From NCBI RefSeq assembly GCF_017656475.1, contig NZ_JACDNT010000004.1:1-64000 (forward strand): 64,000 nucleotides of DNA. Reading direction: 5' to 3'. This document shows positions 46,466 to 52,845 of this stretch, one piece after another. The position numbers and the translations under genes were made by a program. Positions within the stretch are counted from its first letter, which is position 1; the number at the start of each line of letters is the position of its first letter. Under the pieces are notes generated by a model, which saw nothing but the letters and a program-made list of their open reading frames with translations, ran no database searches and had not been told where the DNA came from. Origin of the DNA: Archaeoglobus sp. GTDB lineage: Archaea; Halobacteriota; Archaeoglobi; Archaeoglobales; Archaeoglobaceae.

Positions 46466-47056
46466 ATGAGTAAATATGGCCGAAAATCTACCGAGGGTAA
46501 GCTAAGCCTCGACATGCTTATTGGGCTTTCCATGTTCTTAGTTACGTTCATCTTTGTTGCTCAGTTTCTTCCCGGAGTTTTTGCTGATGTAAGGTATGAA
46601 ATTTCCCTTGGAAGTCAAGCCTACCGTATTGCCACACTGCTTGTGGAGGATAGCGGCTACCCGGCAGATTGGGATAGCAAAGTCTATCCAAGCAATTGTG
46701 ACAGTTACGAATTTAGAATCGGCTTGGCAAATTTCGATTACACAAAGGGTACAGAGGAGAACCATCTCAATACATCTAAAATTCTAAAAGTGGATGAATT
46801 GATGGGTTACCCGATTTGCAGGGAGAAGATCGAGGATTATCTGGGTTTGAATGTCGGAAATCAAAGCTATCACTTCAATTTTAGCTTAAAGCAGCTAAAT
46901 GGATCCGTTTTGGTTTCCGGAGGCGGAGAAGTTCCGGAAATGGGTCAGGTGATGAAATTTGAAAGACTTGTTTATGTGGACAACTGTACAGCAATTCCAT
47001 GTGATACAGTAGCGGGAAGGTGCGTTTGCAGGTTAGAGGTGGTAGTATGGACTTAA
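46466..47056 (+). CDS. Type IV pilin-like protein 1 of the surface operon
   Basis: A 196-residue protein. The N-terminus STEG (8-11) followed by KLSLDMLIGLSMFLVTFIFVAQF has the form of a class III (type IV pilin) signal: cleavage after Gly11, with the hydrophobic helix kept in the mature protein. The rest is extracellular-looking, with several Cys and possible N-glycosylation sites (NTSK, NQSY, NFSL, NGSV). Related short pilin-like families occur in haloarchaeal clusters. A TATA-like AGTTTTAAATGG lies about 30 nt before the ATG. It is the first of six overlapping genes. Confidence 0.8.
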   Translation: MSKYGRKSTEGKLSLDMLIGLSMFLVTFIFVAQFLPGVFADVRYEISLGSQAYRIATLLVEDSGYPADWDSKVYPSNCDSYEFRIGLANFDYTKGTEENHLNTSKILKVDELMGYPICREKIEDYLGLNVGNQSYHFNFSLKQLNGSVLVSGGGEVPEMGQVMKFERLVYVDNCTAIPCDTVAGRCVCRLEVVVWT

Positions 47057-47538
47057 AGGGTCAGACTTTCACTCTTGAAGGTGTCGCAGCATCTCTTCTC
47101 ATCCTTCTCGCCGTTTACACTATGTTTCAAAGCACAGTGGTAATCGCACCTTCTTGGAGTGATTTTGCTAACGTTCAGCTTAAACAGATTGGATACGACA
47201 TATTGAAAATTTTAGACAACCCAAATGGGGGTAATTCCTCATTAGCAGGCATGATTGAAAACTGCTCATCAGGATACAAAGCACCAGAGGAGTTCAACAC
47301 AAATTTAAGCAAAATACTTGAAAACTTAAATACCTTTGGTAGAGTCGACCTTATTTGGACTAATGGGAGCAAAATTGAGCAGATAACCCTCAACGGCTTT
47401 AACAGAACACCTACGCCTGATGCCGTGAGGGTTAGCAGGTTTGTTGTTGTTCCAAATCTCCACAACTCGGAGTGTTTCGGTTTAACCACACCAGAAACAA
47501 AGGTGGTGGAGGTGAGGTTAACCCTATGGAGAACCTGA
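47047..47538 (+). CDS. Type IV pilin-like protein 2
   Basis: 163 residues, starting MDLKG and then QTFTLEGVAASLLILLAVYTMFQ: cleavage after Gly5 would leave an N-terminal Gln and a Glu at mature +6, close to the pilin pattern. The body is about 130 residues with several NxS/T sites (NGGNSS, NCSS, NLS, NGS, NRT). The frame is open upstream, but ATG 47047 follows GAGGTGG and gives a complete signal. It overlaps gene 1 by 10 nt. Confidence 0.78.
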   Translation: MDLKGQTFTLEGVAASLLILLAVYTMFQSTVVIAPSWSDFANVQLKQIGYDILKILDNPNGGNSSLAGMIENCSSGYKAPEEFNTNLSKILENLNTFGRVDLIWTNGSKIEQITLNGFNRTPTPDAVRVSRFVVVPNLHNSECFGLTTPETKVVEVRLTLWRT

Positions 47539-47849
47539 AAGGAGACGAAAGGGGCCAGATGATTCTTCTATTTGCATTCGTAGTCGTAATTGTCATTCTT
47601 ACTTTATCATATGTTTATGCACAGAATATTATCGCAGGTGTTGAAAGCTCAAGAGCGATGCTCGCCTTTCCTAAGGAGGAGATTAGGAATCTGCAATTTA
47701 TACAGCAGAATTATAAGGATAACCTAAGCGAGGTTAACCTTCAAATCCAAACCTTGTGTGCGAAGAACGGCTGGGTTTGTTATATTGGTTTGAATAAGAT
47801 AGAATTTAAGAGTGTGGAGGTGGATTATTGTGAAGGAGATGAGTGTTGA
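47526..47849 (+). CDS. Type IV pilin-like protein 3
   Basis: 107 residues. MENLKGDERG precedes QMILLFAFVVVIVILTLSYVYA, a class III-type signal with cleavage after Gly10. The mature part is short and ends with three Cys (LCAKNGWVC, YCEGDEC). GGTGGAGGTGAGG lies about 8 nt before the ATG at 47526, so the upstream open frame is not used. It overlaps gene 2 by 13 nt. Confidence 0.75.
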   Translation: MENLKGDERGQMILLFAFVVVIVILTLSYVYAQNIIAGVESSRAMLAFPKEEIRNLQFIQQNYKDNLSEVNLQIQTLCAKNGWVCYIGLNKIEFKSVEVDYCEGDEC

Positions 47850-50634
47850 CAAAAAAGGAGTCTCACTCCTTTTGGAATACCTCTTCCTTGCTGCAATTTT
47901 AAGCGTATTCGTTGTTGTACTTGGGTTATCCATTCATGACGTTCTTACCGAAGCTCAGGTTCTGAGAGTTGCTGAAAACCAGTTTGCCGATGTTGCTTCA
48001 CAGATATCTGCCTACTACACCGACTATATTCTCCTCAGACCGCCCTCGGGTTACATTAAAACAAAGATATCTCTCCTTCCGGAAGTAGGAGATTATGAAT
48101 ACAAGGTTAGATTTGAAGAGAGAGGTGACAGAATTTTTATCTCACTAGAAAGCGTTACTGGTGATATCAAAGCTCAGAGTGGGCTGGGGTTGGATAAATT
48201 CGTCCTACCAGAAGGCGGGAAGCTTGAGATAAAAACGTCAGGAGAGGTCTTAAGTGCCGAGGCCGAAGGTGAAGAGAAGCCAGAAATTACATATACTAGG
48301 GAAGAAGCCTGCCCCTTTGAATTAAAACCGAGGCTGGACTTTATACCATCAAGTGTTGAAAAGGGTGGTGAGACTCAGCTTGTGGTTTTCTTTGAAAATT
48401 CAAATGAAATCACAGAACCGGTATCATGGAATGTGACCTTTTGGAATGGCACTGTTATTGAAGGGAGTGGAAAGTCTGAAATTATTGAGTTAAACATAAG
48501 TGACATTACCGGATGCCAAAATATTGGTGGATACGACTATGAGTGCAGGGCTGAGATTTTTGCGTGGATAGAGGAAAAAGAGACCTGTAATGCCAGCTCT
48601 GCTGAGTCCCTTCTCGTTTCTGAAAAACCGATACAGTCAAATCCATACATCACCTACAATAAGTGGGTTGAGCCAAAAACGGTCTCACCTGGCGAGACCT
48701 TCGAAGTTCACTTAAAGCTTGAGGGAAGGGGTTTTGTCAATCAGGCAATAAATCTCTCAGCCGTGCACGTGGTTGATGTGTCAGGGAGCATGGACTGGGA
48801 CGCAATTTACAAGGAATTTAACCAAACTATTGTTCCCAATGTTGTTAGAAGGGTTGTGAATACAACAGATTTCTCTACAAACCCCGGAAATCTGGAGATT
48901 TATGCTTACACTACTGATAAGCTGTCGGATTGGTATTATGATTTGAGCTGTTTTAGCTCCTGTGATAGCTGCTCACCCCCACCATGGAACGGAAAGGGAA
49001 TAGATAGCTCTTTCGTCAAACTCTACGTTAACGGCGCTGAGGTAGGGACAGATTACACTGATGGAGAAAAGGTTGGAAAGCAGTATGTCAATACAAACGC
49101 TAAGGGAAGCTACACCATAGAAGTTACTGCAAGAGCACCTGAGCAGATTAATCTAACCATACTCGTGAAGTTTAATGGCAGTATCATTCTAAATGAAAAT
49201 ATAAGCTATTCAAACTACCAGGAGTTCAGCTTCGAACTTCCCGCAGATGTTGACTTCAGTTATCTAAAAATTTCGAATTTTCAGGGAAGTATGCCTTACT
49301 GGTATATTGATAGAAATTGTTGGTGGAGTTGGTTGTCAGGTTGGACTTGTGACTACGATTGCACCTACAAGGACAATCACAACGATCCAAATGTACTTCT
49401 GAATGTCTGGGTGGTTGAACCATCAGGCAACAAAGAGTTTGCCCGTGATATTGATAGAGATTACTCGTATGACATAAAATACAGATATGAGAACAACAAC
49501 CCTCCAGAAGGTACTTTCAAAATCATTGTAGTTCCGACATCCAAGGAGTCAGAAACTTTCAAAGCGACGGTTTATTTAAAGAGAATAGAGGCGGCCCAGC
49601 TTGCTGCAATTCAGTTCAACAACATGCTCGGCGATGGTGACTTTGTAGGTTTGACCAAGTTCTCAGACGACGCCAGCAGAGTGGAGGTGAACTCTTCCCC
49701 TCTAAAATACATGACGAAAGACAAGGATCACGTAAATGACCTTATCAGATCCCTTGCACCAAACGGAGCTACGGACCATGCAGACGCGCTTTACTATGGA
49801 GTAAAAGTATTCCCAATCTGGAATGAGCCTGGAAACAACTGCACAGATTGCATTAACAATACCCGCCCGCTGATGATTCTGCTTACTGACGGAGAAACGA
49901 CCGAGTGTGACGTAAAGAACTACTTTGGATGTGATTTGTGTGATGGTAGCTGTGATGGCAGTGATTGGTGCCAGAGTGGAGCCAATCAGGCTCTATGCGT
50001 TGCGAACTACATCAAGAATAACCTTGAAATCAATGGATTTGAAATTCCAATCTGCACGATAGGTTTTGGTACCTCCCTAACGAGTAATGGTCAGGAATTG
50101 CTCAAAGATATAGCCTCCCCCCGCCCAGACAACAATGAGCCATGTTACTTCTTCGCCACAACAAGCGAGGAACTCTTGGAAGCGTATAAGACGATATTCA
50201 ACATCTTTCAGATTGCTGCTAAGAACATATCCATTAACGAGTCGCTCAATGTAACCCTCTCAGGCCCCTTTGAGTTCGTAAGTGCAACTGCCACATCCAG
50301 TAAGGGCAACCCCGTTGACCTTCAGGTTGACAAACTTCCTTCTTCGACCGTGATAAAGCTCAATATGGCATCTATACAGAAAGATGAGACAATTGAGCTG
50401 ACTGTGAGGTTGAAGGTAAAAGAGGATGCGCAGGAGGGAACATACGACATCAACAACGAAGGTTTTGACATCTCCTATATAGACTTCACTCCACTCAACT
50501 ACCTCGGTCAGGAGACAACAACATGTCCAGCAGGCTCAACTTGGACGAACGGAAAGTGCAGAATGGAGATTGTGTCTGATAAGGATAAGCTGGTTGTTAC
50601 AACAGGTGAGGGTGGTGAGATTACACTTGGATAG
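47830..50634 (+). CDS. Large surface protein with pilin-like N-terminus and VWA domain
   Basis: 934 residues. DKKG (7-10) precedes VSLLLEYLFLAAILSVFVVVL, a class III signal with Glu at mature +6. The middle is beta-rich. A von Willebrand A domain starts at Asp316 (DVSGSMD, the MIDAS D-x-S-x-S) with Thr648 (GATDHAD) and Asp687 (LLTDGETTE) completing the metal site. A long insert between MIDAS parts (about 325-600) is Cys- and aromatic-rich. Many NxS/T sites suggest glycosylation. A C-terminal beta domain follows. The GTG at 47830 follows GTGGAGGTGGA and is chosen over the longer frame. It is likely a tip adhesin or anchor of a pilus-like structure. Confidence 0.85.
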   Translation: MKEMSVDKKGVSLLLEYLFLAAILSVFVVVLGLSIHDVLTEAQVLRVAENQFADVASQISAYYTDYILLRPPSGYIKTKISLLPEVGDYEYKVRFEERGDRIFISLESVTGDIKAQSGLGLDKFVLPEGGKLEIKTSGEVLSAEAEGEEKPEITYTREEACPFELKPRLDFIPSSVEKGGETQLVVFFENSNEITEPVSWNVTFWNGTVIEGSGKSEIIELNISDITGCQNIGGYDYECRAEIFAWIEEKETCNASSAESLLVSEKPIQSNPYITYNKWVEPKTVSPGETFEVHLKLEGRGFVNQAINLSAVHVVDVSGSMDWDAIYKEFNQTIVPNVVRRVVNTTDFSTNPGNLEIYAYTTDKLSDWYYDLSCFSSCDSCSPPPWNGKGIDSSFVKLYVNGAEVGTDYTDGEKVGKQYVNTNAKGSYTIEVTARAPEQINLTILVKFNGSIILNENISYSNYQEFSFELPADVDFSYLKISNFQGSMPYWYIDRNCWWSWLSGWTCDYDCTYKDNHNDPNVLLNVWVVEPSGNKEFARDIDRDYSYDIKYRYENNNPPEGTFKIIVVPTSKESETFKATVYLKRIEAAQLAAIQFNNMLGDGDFVGLTKFSDDASRVEVNSSPLKYMTKDKDHVNDLIRSLAPNGATDHADALYYGVKVFPIWNEPGNNCTDCINNTRPLMILLTDGETTECDVKNYFGCDLCDGSCDGSDWCQSGANQALCVANYIKNNLEINGFEIPICTIGFGTSLTSNGQELLKDIASPRPDNNEPCYFFATTSEELLEAYKTIFNIFQIAAKNISINESLNVTLSGPFEFVSATATSSKGNPVDLQVDKLPSSTVIKLNMASIQKDETIELTVRLKVKEDAQEGTYDINNEGFDISYIDFTPLNYLGQETTTCPAGSTWTNGKCRMEIVSDKDKLVVTTGEGGEITLG

Positions 50635-51403
50635 CAAGGCTGTTTCAGAAGTAGTGGGGGCTTTACTGACTGTCGTGATAATAGTCACAGCAGCCGGGCT
50701 AATATACACCATTTCTCATCCTTTTATATCGAGCAGTATTGACAATGTGAACTACAGAAATGCTATAAAAAACATGGCTGAAATTAAGGAGATTATCCAA
50801 CGAATGAAGTATGGTAGTGAACTATCTACTTTTAAAACAATACAACTGAATGGAGGCAGTATTTCCAATTCGAAATACTTTACACTAAGAGTTTTTACTT
50901 CAACCCTTCCACCGGGGCTTCAAGGAAATCCCCATCCCAATGTAAACGCATTTATTCATGCTTCTCATGATATGGAGATAGAATGGAAAGTCCACACACT
51001 TAGCATCGAAACCACTGGAAGAGAATTGGTTTTTGAATCAGGAATATTCCTTAAAGAATACGGAACCGTCAACCCTTTCTCCGTCTCAGAACCTGATTTA
51101 ATTGTAACAAACGACACACTCTATCTCTCTATTTACGATTTTCACGGAAACTTCTCCGCTGGAGGTTCTAAGATTACTGTTAATTTCAAGCATGATTTTA
51201 CAACCATTTTCAGCAACATAACGTCAATCGAAATAGAATCTGATTTCTGCCAGATATGGAAAAAATCCATAGAGGAAGCTTTAAACGCATTAAGCAATCC
51301 TCCTGTAGATCTTGTAGATAACGATTGCAGCGACAAATTAATTAGAATTGAAAAGACCAACGGCAATTTAAACCTGATTGTAACGAGAGTTGATGTGTCA
51401 TGA
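50627..51403 (+). CDS. Type IV pilin-like protein 5
   Basis: 258 residues if started at the TTG (50627) that follows GGTGGTGAG; a GTG at 50615 is the alternative. DSKA precedes VSEVVGALLTVVIIVTAAGLIYTI, the pattern of archaeal pilins that are cut just before a VSxVxG segment. The remainder (NYRNAIKNMAEIKEIIQRMKYGSE...) resembles large archaeal pilin-like proteins with a beta-rich C-terminus. It overlaps the VWA gene by 8 nt and gene 6 by 4 nt. Confidence 0.75.
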   Translation: MDSKAVSEVVGALLTVVIIVTAAGLIYTISHPFISSSIDNVNYRNAIKNMAEIKEIIQRMKYGSELSTFKTIQLNGGSISNSKYFTLRVFTSTLPPGLQGNPHPNVNAFIHASHDMEIEWKVHTLSIETTGRELVFESGIFLKEYGTVNPFSVSEPDLIVTNDTLYLSIYDFHGNFSAGGSKITVNFKHDFTTIFSNITSIEIESDFCQIWKKSIEEALNALSNPPVDLVDNDCSDKLIRIEKTNGNLNLIVTRVDVS

Positions 51404-52332
51404 GGGAAAACGGAGTTTCCGAAGTTTTGGGCTACATGTATATTTTTGGAATCGTTATGGCAGTGCTTGCCATCGTTTTCGTTCAGGTTAACACCATGGT
51501 TGAGGATATGAAAAGAAGTGTGATGTCCCAGAGCCTCGAACAGAGCTTTAAAAGAATTCAGTACATTATTCATTCAGTTTCATTTGGTGAAGTACCATCT
51601 CAGGCAGTTGAGATCGAAATGCAGGGAGGTACGCTATGGGTTGATAGAACTAACCCGGAGTTTATTTTGGCGTTTGTTAACTACACCGAGGCCAACCCTA
51701 ATGATTTGGAATGTGGAGATATCCCCAACTCAATTGCTGGGTGCATAAACCTCTCAACTGGAGATATTTATATTTCACCGAGTTGTCCGGCTTCAAATTA
51801 CAATTTTTCCGCATGCCTGCTAAACAAAACAGTCGGAAAACTGGTTTTTAGCTACAAAGACTGGTTGCTCACTATTGAAGCAGGAAGTATTTTTTCCAAG
51901 TACTCCTCACAGGACTATTCTAAGCTCCTCTACGAGCCGAGAATTCTATACAACACCACACTGACTCAGGGAACTACATTCCTCGTTATGAACATTCCAG
52001 TTGTTGAAGGTAATTTGTCTCTTGCAGGCACGGGCAGATTCAGGTTTTTTGTTAACGAGGGGGGCAGCATTTTCAGTCGCATTTATGTTCCTGGAGTAAG
52101 ATATAACTTCAGCGATGTATACCTTATAATCAGAGATACCCAGAATGGTTATGCCTGGTGCAAATTCTTTGAAAATAGTGAGGGTTACTTCAACGTTACA
52201 CTTGACTCCTCGAAAACTCAACATTCAAGCTGCTACTACTCTGAGAATCCTACAGTTACAGTAGAAAACGAAATCTTTTCTCAAAGAATGTCGGAAATAA
52301 TTGTAATTTTCAGGGAAGTTGTTTTTTCATAA
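51400..52332 (+). CDS. Type IV pilin-like protein 6
   Basis: 310 residues. MRENG precedes VSEVLGYMYIFGIVMAVLAIVFVQ, again a class III-like signal, cleavage after Gly5. The mature part has the same MSQSLEQSFKRIQYIIHSVSFGEVPSQ stalk helix as gene 5, then a beta-rich domain with paired Cys and NxS/T sites. It starts by ATGA overlap with gene 5 and ends the operon, overlapping tfe by 6 nt, tail to tail. Confidence 0.75.
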   Translation: MRENGVSEVLGYMYIFGIVMAVLAIVFVQVNTMVEDMKRSVMSQSLEQSFKRIQYIIHSVSFGEVPSQAVEIEMQGGTLWVDRTNPEFILAFVNYTEANPNDLECGDIPNSIAGCINLSTGDIYISPSCPASNYNFSACLLNKTVGKLVFSYKDWLLTIEAGSIFSKYSSQDYSKLLYEPRILYNTTLTQGTTFLVMNIPVVEGNLSLAGTGRFRFFVNEGGSIFSRIYVPGVRYNFSDVYLIIRDTQNGYAWCKFFENSEGYFNVTLDSSKTQHSSCYYSENPTVTVENEIFSQRMSEIIVIFREVVFS

Positions 52333-52845
52333 ACTCTTCAAAATCTCCTCTATCTTCCTAACCTCCTCCTCAATTTTCTCAACAGCTTTGCTGCAATCTA
52401 GGTAGTCAAGCATCGCCCCGCAGCGTGGGCATTCAAAGTTGAACTCCATCGCGTCGTTGTAGGACACCTTTATACACATGTTGGGGCAGATGTAGTAAAT
52501 CGTGCTTGTCTCGGCTTCAATTTTCTCTCTCAGCTTCTTCGCCGTTTTTTCAAGCTCCCGTTTTAACACCTCCACCGCTTTATTGTAGTTTATCCGCCAG
52601 TAGTATTCCATCCACCCCGTCTCGTCATCTCTCCTCCTGACGTAATCCGCCAGTCCTATTTCGTAGAGTGCAAAAAGAGCCTTTCTAATTTCGTTGATCT
52701 CTATCCCCAGCTCGAGGGAAAGCTGATCATCTGTGAATTCACCCTCGATGCCAAGCGAAAAGAGAATCAAACCGACCTCACCGGCAACCCTTCCGACAAG
52801 CTCGTTCAGCAGTTCCTCTACACCAGTTGTGGTCTCAGCTTTCAC
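52327..52845 (-). CDS. tfe: Transcription initiation factor TFE
   Basis: The archaeal homologue of TFIIE-alpha: it helps open promoter DNA on RNA polymerase. The 172 residues have an N-terminal winged helix (LILFSLGIEGEFTDDQLSLELGIEINEIRKALFALYEIGLADY) and a C-terminal zinc ribbon with CPNMC and CPRC. It starts with GTG. A TTAAAAAAGG box is about 27 nt upstream. Confidence 0.95.
   Translation of the reverse strand: MKAETTTGVEELLNELVGRVAGEVGLILFSLGIEGEFTDDQLSLELGIEINEIRKALFALYEIGLADYVRRRDDETGWMEYYWRINYNKAVEVLKRELEKTAKKLREKIEAETSTIYYICPNMCIKVSYNDAMEFNFECPRCGAMLDYLDCSKAVEKIEEEVRKIEEILKSL

Follow-up and report, generated by a model that had tools for sequence, protein, structure and literature searches.

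The stretch analysed here, called the window, comprises 64,000 nucleotides (nt) of Archaeoglobus sp. contig NZ_JACDNT010000004.1 and contains a pilin-like operon of six overlapping plus-strand genes at 46466-52332, which we designate P1 to P6. An earlier inspection of the letters alone (the sequence-only reading) had described six such genes at these positions, and our analysis agrees, with neighbours overlapping by 4-20 nt. Our data support well the conclusion that the operon encodes a set of pilins in which one subunit, of the DUF7266 family, bears a large cargo with a VWA domain. In comparison with the nearest relative, the ratio of nonsynonymous to synonymous substitution rates (dN/dS) is 0.06-0.19 for all six, indicative of purifying selection, and the six open reading frames are thus real genes under selection. 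The genes, with lengths in amino acids (aa), are as follows:

46466..47056, plus strand: P1, 196 aa, DUF7287 pilin-like subunit (PF23958, E 1.7e-10, above cut-off), mapped to slot 1 in the survey; N-terminus EG then KLSLDMLIGLSMFLVTF, with Lys at +1
47047..47538, plus strand: P2, 163 aa, DUF7288 pilin-like subunit (PF23959, E 1.8e-14); N-terminus LKG then QTFTLEGVAASLLILLAV
47526..47849, plus strand: P3, 107 aa, DUF7261-like pilin subunit (PF23922, E 2.5e-4, below cut-off); N-terminus ERG then QMILLFAFVVVIVILTLSYV
47830..50634, plus strand: P4, 934 aa, DUF7266 pilin with a putatively grafted cargo of immunoglobulin-like (Ig), VWA and Ig domains (VWA_2, E 3.5e-8, above cut-off); N-terminus KKG then VSLLLEYLFLAAILSVFVV
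50627..51403, plus strand: P5, 258 aa, DUF7289 pilin (PF23960, E 2.2e-10); N-terminus SKA then VSEVVGALLTVVIIVTAAG
51400..52332, plus strand: P6, 310 aa, DUF7289 pilin (PF23960, E 2.4e-11); N-terminus ENG then VSEVLGYMYIFGIVMAVLAI

Four of the six proteins (P1, P2, P5 and P6) passed the Pfam cut-offs, for DUF7287, DUF7288, DUF7289 and DUF7289, respectively, and the orthologues of P3 keep slot 3 in Archaeoglobales. P5 also exceeded the NCBIfam cut-off for the archaellin/type IV pilin N-terminus (TIGR02537), and this N-terminal domain was all that the NCBIfam search returned. Each product begins with a short charged segment, a Gly or Ala, and then a single hydrophobic N-terminal helix, the layout that the sequence-only reading had taken for class III signals. 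While this layout stands in all six, our own motif scan, used in place of FlaFind, found the standard motif in P2 to P6 (KGQT, RGQM, KGVS, KAVS and NGVS); P1 has EGKL, with a Lys at +1 that a strict class III motif would reject. Orthologues of P1 mostly have Lys at this position too, or else Gln or Arg, and motif-like starts predominate among the orthologues. The richness in N-glycosylation sites (sequons) claimed for all six holds relative to the other genes of the window, with 0.9-3.1 sites per 100 aa versus 0.32. Measured against their own shuffled composition, only P1, P4 and P6 show an enrichment; P2 is a borderline case, and there is none in P3 (one site) or P5 (three sites).

AlphaFold2 models were made for P4 and P6. 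That of P6 shows a helix (residues 3-62) and a beta head, with a predicted local distance difference test (pLDDT) of 80. The P4 model, based on 15 sequences (pLDDT 76; predicted template modelling score, pTM, 0.59), has the same pilin layout of a long N-terminal helix and a beta-strand head, continued by an Ig/PKD-like domain, a VWA domain and a C-terminal beta domain. The VWA domain is formed by residues 309-322 and about 573-792, split by a beta-rich insert, and the linker between the beta head and the Ig/PKD-like domain is poorly predicted. The parts of P4, including its metal-ion-dependent adhesion site (MIDAS), map as follows:

47863..48036, plus strand: residues 12-69, 58-residue N-terminal pilin helix (AlphaFold2, block pLDDT about 51-69)
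48049..48237, plus strand: residues 74-136, beta head (AlphaFold2), forming with the helix the DUF7266 pilin module
48322..48621, plus strand: residues 165-264, Ig/PKD-like domain (AlphaFold2, block pLDDT about 77-92)
48775..48789, plus strand: D316-S320, MIDAS motif DxSxS
48796..49545, plus strand: residues 323-572, beta-rich insert in the loop directly after the first VWA/MIDAS strand
49546..50205, plus strand: residues 573-792, rest of the VWA domain, holding T648 and D687
49771-49773, plus strand: MIDAS T648
49888-49890, plus strand: MIDAS D687
50206..50631, plus strand: residues 793-934, C-terminal beta domain (AlphaFold2)

What is the origin of the N-terminal part of P4? On its own, P4 scores below the cut-off of 27.6 bits against the DUF7266 model (PF23928; 12.3 bits, E 0.14). 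A profile of its N-terminus aligned with that of the short DUF7266 pilins by hhalign at 99.6% (E 9.3e-25, about 140-150 residues or columns covered). Where slot 4 lacks the VWA form, in what we call short-type operons, it encodes a protein of about 130-210 aa, and 16 of the 17 short slot-4 proteins tested match PF23928. Judged from these profile comparisons, it is well supported that the P4 N-terminus corresponds to the DUF7266 member of a set of five pilins found across the phylum, and that member appears to have had the cargo grafted onto it. In a profile search of the PDB, the Ig/PKD-like domain of this cargo weakly matched the PKD domains of collagenases.

The MIDAS of P4 is complete (D316, S318, S320, T648 and D687), the residues singled out beforehand (Asp316, Thr648 and Asp687) being exact. 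Across 21 homologues with 23-87% identity to P4, four of these residues (S318, S320, T648 and D687) never vary, and conservation of D316 is 90% or higher. The sequence-only reading had also considered calcium. Calcium is not favoured for P4 because the only closely analogous MIDAS pilin with a measured metal preference, Streptococcus sanguinis PilB, binds Mg2+/Mn2+ and not Ca2+ (PMC8179133), and we did not adopt a calcium dependence. P4 carries 22 Cys, and the Cys- and aromatic-rich insert reported earlier is a property of the genus Archaeoglobus; elsewhere it is variable or nearly absent, with 0-8 Cys in homologues from several other genera and none or one in some. Since other genera are without the cysteines, we dropped the Cys-rich insert as a defining feature of the system.

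The six-gene order with the VWA protein at slot 4 recurs across Archaeoglobales. A search with the P4 profile (E<=1e-40) found fused P4 in 35 of 57 Archaeoglobales genomes, three of these hits being C-terminal parts only, on short contigs, and in none of the 337 other genomes of the phylum sample; the VWA part alone was matched in two genomes outside Archaeoglobales. Within the phylum sample, the VWA-fused P4 is confined to Archaeoglobales, and a scan of a contig collection for P4, which relied on one peptide pattern, returned Archaeoglobi only. P2 (DUF7288) is present in 47 of the 57 Archaeoglobales genomes and DUF7287 in 264 of the 394 genomes sampled from the phylum, Halobacteriota, where the five-pilin core is widespread and often adjoins genes for a PilB-type ATPase and TadC. 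The relationship to short haloarchaeal pilin-like families that the sequence-only reading had pointed to is supported. We also observed two DUF7289 genes in the intact VWA-type operons examined (L063, L065-L076, L078-L085, L087-L089 and the window) and one in most short-type operons, outside a few genera.

No assembly ATPase, membrane platform or prepilin peptidase lies within the window, as had been noted, and own-genome searches place them on other contigs only. The home genome encodes a PilB-type ATPase and TadC pair on contig C12 and the archaellum set on C32; a single prepilin peptidase is found on C2, and C45 carries a PilA-type pilin of 125 aa that stands alone. C3 ends with a TadC (L013:6845-8800) and C16 begins with a truncated ATPase (L186:2-751), which may be two halves of one broken locus. 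The suggestion that the operon supplies structural subunits to machinery encoded elsewhere is supported, and a genetic link to a PilB-type ATPase and TadC is seen in many relatives: both adjoin the VWA-type operon in L063, L080 and L113, and in haloarchaea TadC lies directly upstream of DUF7287. In a tree of the ATPases, the one from C12 groups, together with its counterpart from an A. fulgidus-like genome, with the ATPase beside the L080 VWA operon (support 100/99). All ATPases adjoining VWA operons form a single clade (99/98), whereas those next to short-type operons belong to other clades.

P4 resembles bacterial adhesive pilus tips without clear sequence kinship. Among PDB matches to the P4 profile, S. 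sanguinis PilB (7b7p) ranks fifth (E 2.6e-9), and Foldseek with the P4 model found SpaC, the GBS104 tip pilin and the PilB minor pilin with E 8e-10 to 4e-6 (PilB 4e-7, probably via the VWA region). S. sanguinis PilB is a bimodular adhesive pilin for which adhesion has been demonstrated and tip placement modelled (PMC8179133). Like P4, it is a modular pilin with a MIDAS-containing VWA domain grafted at the C-terminus (PDB 7b7p, 7ba2); its pilin module is bacterial, it is about half the size of P4, and its function is demonstrated, whereas that of P4 is predicted. Caulobacter CpaL, a TadG orthologue, has a pilin module and a MIDAS VWA domain split by a beta-rich insert, and is predicted to reside at the pilus tip with other minor pilins (PMC12607857). 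CpaL/TadG and P4 share the N-terminal pilin module and the single, split MIDAS VWA domain, and there is a relationship between the machinery of Tad pili and the PilB/TadC type of archaea. Unlike CpaL/TadG, P4 has an extra Ig-like domain before the VWA domain and a beta domain after it, its pilin module is the archaeal DUF7266, and it belongs to a set of six pilin genes in place of TadE/F/G. Because no Tad or TadG Pfam model is among the matches of the operon proteins at E<=1 and the pilin module is archaeal, we do not claim TadG kinship; the likeness is one of plan only.

Two further systems invite comparison. In PilY1 and the type IVa minor pilins, a VWA adhesin is likewise presented by a complex of several minor pilins, but PilY1 is a separate, non-pilin protein, whereas the VWA domain of P4 is covalently fused to a pilin. 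The euryarchaeal clade-2 PilB4-type set, in the relevant passages of Makarova et al. 2016 (PMC4858521), also combines a PilB/TadC pair with its own pilin set, and a 972-aa ATPase in L114, upstream of TadC and DUF7287, fits the enlarged haloarchaeal PilB4 ATPase of those passages. According to the same passages, one pilin set may serve more than one ATPase of the PilB/TadC type and the PilB4-type set has no clear role, and, in contrast to what we describe, they contain no VWA-fused subunit or cargo variation. Our search of a literature collection with few subscription journals found no paper on an archaeal VWA-fused pilin and none under the DUF names.

What might such a pilin set do? The gene set, its orthology, the DUF7266 identity of P4, the conserved MIDAS, the modelled architecture and the linkage to ATPase and platform in relatives were established computationally. 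By analogy with S. sanguinis PilB and Caulobacter CpaL/TadG, we propose, as the probable function, a minor-pilin tip complex that shows a metal-dependent adhesin and works as these proteins do. Each subunit would be made with a class III signal and cut by the genome's single prepilin peptidase, with its N-terminal helix holding it in place. Assembly of the complex would fall to a PilB-type ATPase and TadC from elsewhere, most likely the C12 pair, and would probably take place on a filament of PilA-type major pilin, whose distal tip would be the best place for the bulky Ig-VWA-Ig cargo of P4. In that position, a divalent metal would be bound by the MIDAS, which, together with the beta insert next to it, would also bind a ligand on minerals, other cells or biofilm matrix. 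What we infer is that the subunits are cleaved and enter a filament, that P4 lies at the tip, and that it binds metal and ligand and adheres; tip placement and MIDAS-mediated adhesion are the most economical account.

Several observations weigh against this proposal. In the home genome the operon lies away from the machinery genes, the first MIDAS Asp is missing in one homologue (L067), and the P4 model has an overall pTM of 0.59 and a low-confidence helix. The structure prediction that had been recommended as a check returned a helix and beta head for both P6 and P4; the P6 model, for its part, had no Foldseek match in the PDB at E<=0.001, and no solved pilin was significant. Inter-alpha-inhibitor and integrins also score against the P4 VWA domain, in profile and Foldseek searches, and the similarity is therefore partly generic. 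Finally, two genomes with short-type operons only (G024 and G057) nevertheless own ATPases of the VWA-linked clade. The association of VWA operons with that clade is thus not exclusive, and a strict pairing was dropped.

It is conceivable, though unlikely, that P4 resides at the tip and that the main task of its VWA domain and insert is to detect force or contact with a surface and pass a signal to the cell, with adhesion secondary. CpaL, which has the same domain plan, has been proposed as a Tad-pilus mechanosensor, and a disulfide has been linked to force sensing by the PilY1 VWA domain (PMC12607857). The Archaeoglobus insert is indeed Cys-rich, but several genera have homologues with none or one Cys, and the operon encodes no signalling partner. 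We also regard it as unlikely that the class III signals build a membrane-anchored, non-filamentous surface assembly like the Sulfolobus bindosome of substrate-binding proteins. In favour of it, the operon is without a PilA-type major pilin, its machinery is unlinked and no pilin matches the P6 fold. Against it, the genome does encode a PilA-type pilin at another site, the same pilin set adjoins ATPase and TadC in many relatives, and the cargo is a VWA domain rather than a solute-binding fold.

A role at the base of the filament, where the set would prime assembly and hold the pilus while the VWA domain grips the envelope or S-layer, as once proposed for TadG, seems to us improbable. Passages in Makarova et al. 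(PMC4858521) mention a hypothesis in which pili are anchored to the membrane by TadG-type VWA proteins, and they assign the minor pilins of a related system a position close to the base. However, recent work on Tad and type IV pili locates such complexes at the tip, and a bulky C-terminal cargo with a conserved MIDAS would be better suited to outward display. Minor-pilin sets of similar size are found in type II secretion systems, but a pseudopilus in which the pilins form a short protein-exporting piston and P4 a cargo receptor is highly improbable, given that the operon has no secreted cargo genes and that Archaeoglobi are not known to have the outer membrane usually served by such systems.

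Returning to the tip complex, cargo is not limited to P4. Outside VWA-fused operons, slot 4 is nearly always a bare pilin, and cargo occurs on other slots or in neighbour genes. In L121 (6537-8813), which comes from a distant genome within the phylum, it is the slot-3 protein and not that of slot 4 that has a VWA match (6.5e-11), next to one to DUF7261 (5.9e-7). Separate VWA proteins with PKD/Ig domains and a Sec-like signal, resembling the PilY1 form, adjoin short-type operons at L093:4837-8130 and L127:9856-12357. A region of about 380 residues without a Pfam name is found on slot 3 in three loci and, in related form (4e-28), on slot 2 in L125, in the following genes:

L056:3213-5576, slot 3
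L057:7083-9470, slot 3
L059:6743-9466, slot 3
L125:11975-13837, slot 2

Tips of Myxococcus Tad pili bear exchangeable minor-pilin complexes. We see even chances that the five-pilin set is a general tip platform with exchangeable cargo, and that interchangeable tips evolved in archaea in parallel to those of bacterial Tad pili. The bare and cargo-bearing slots across the phylum show how an archaeal filament may gain functions. Little is known about the tips of archaeal pili, for which the operon offers one specific, testable candidate; the type species of the genus has been sequenced, and single-residue changes should separate pilus assembly from adhesion. A tip function, if true, would unite five functionally uncharacterised families in a shared role.

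Some further proteins and one neighbouring gene deserve mention. Slot-2 (DUF7288) proteins are enlarged to 434-865 aa by extra regions at L148:6840-9437, L128:10364-11668 and L129:12399-13721. Apart from the operon, contig C25 of the home genome (L185:421-2559) encodes a second large modular pilin-like protein of 712 aa, with Big_1 and PKD domains, which starts MDSKAVSPLIGFVLLLAIIMG. Next to P6, a convergent minus-strand gene at 52327-52845 has, judged by eye, a winged-helix and zinc-ribbon look like that of the archaeal TFE alpha subunit.

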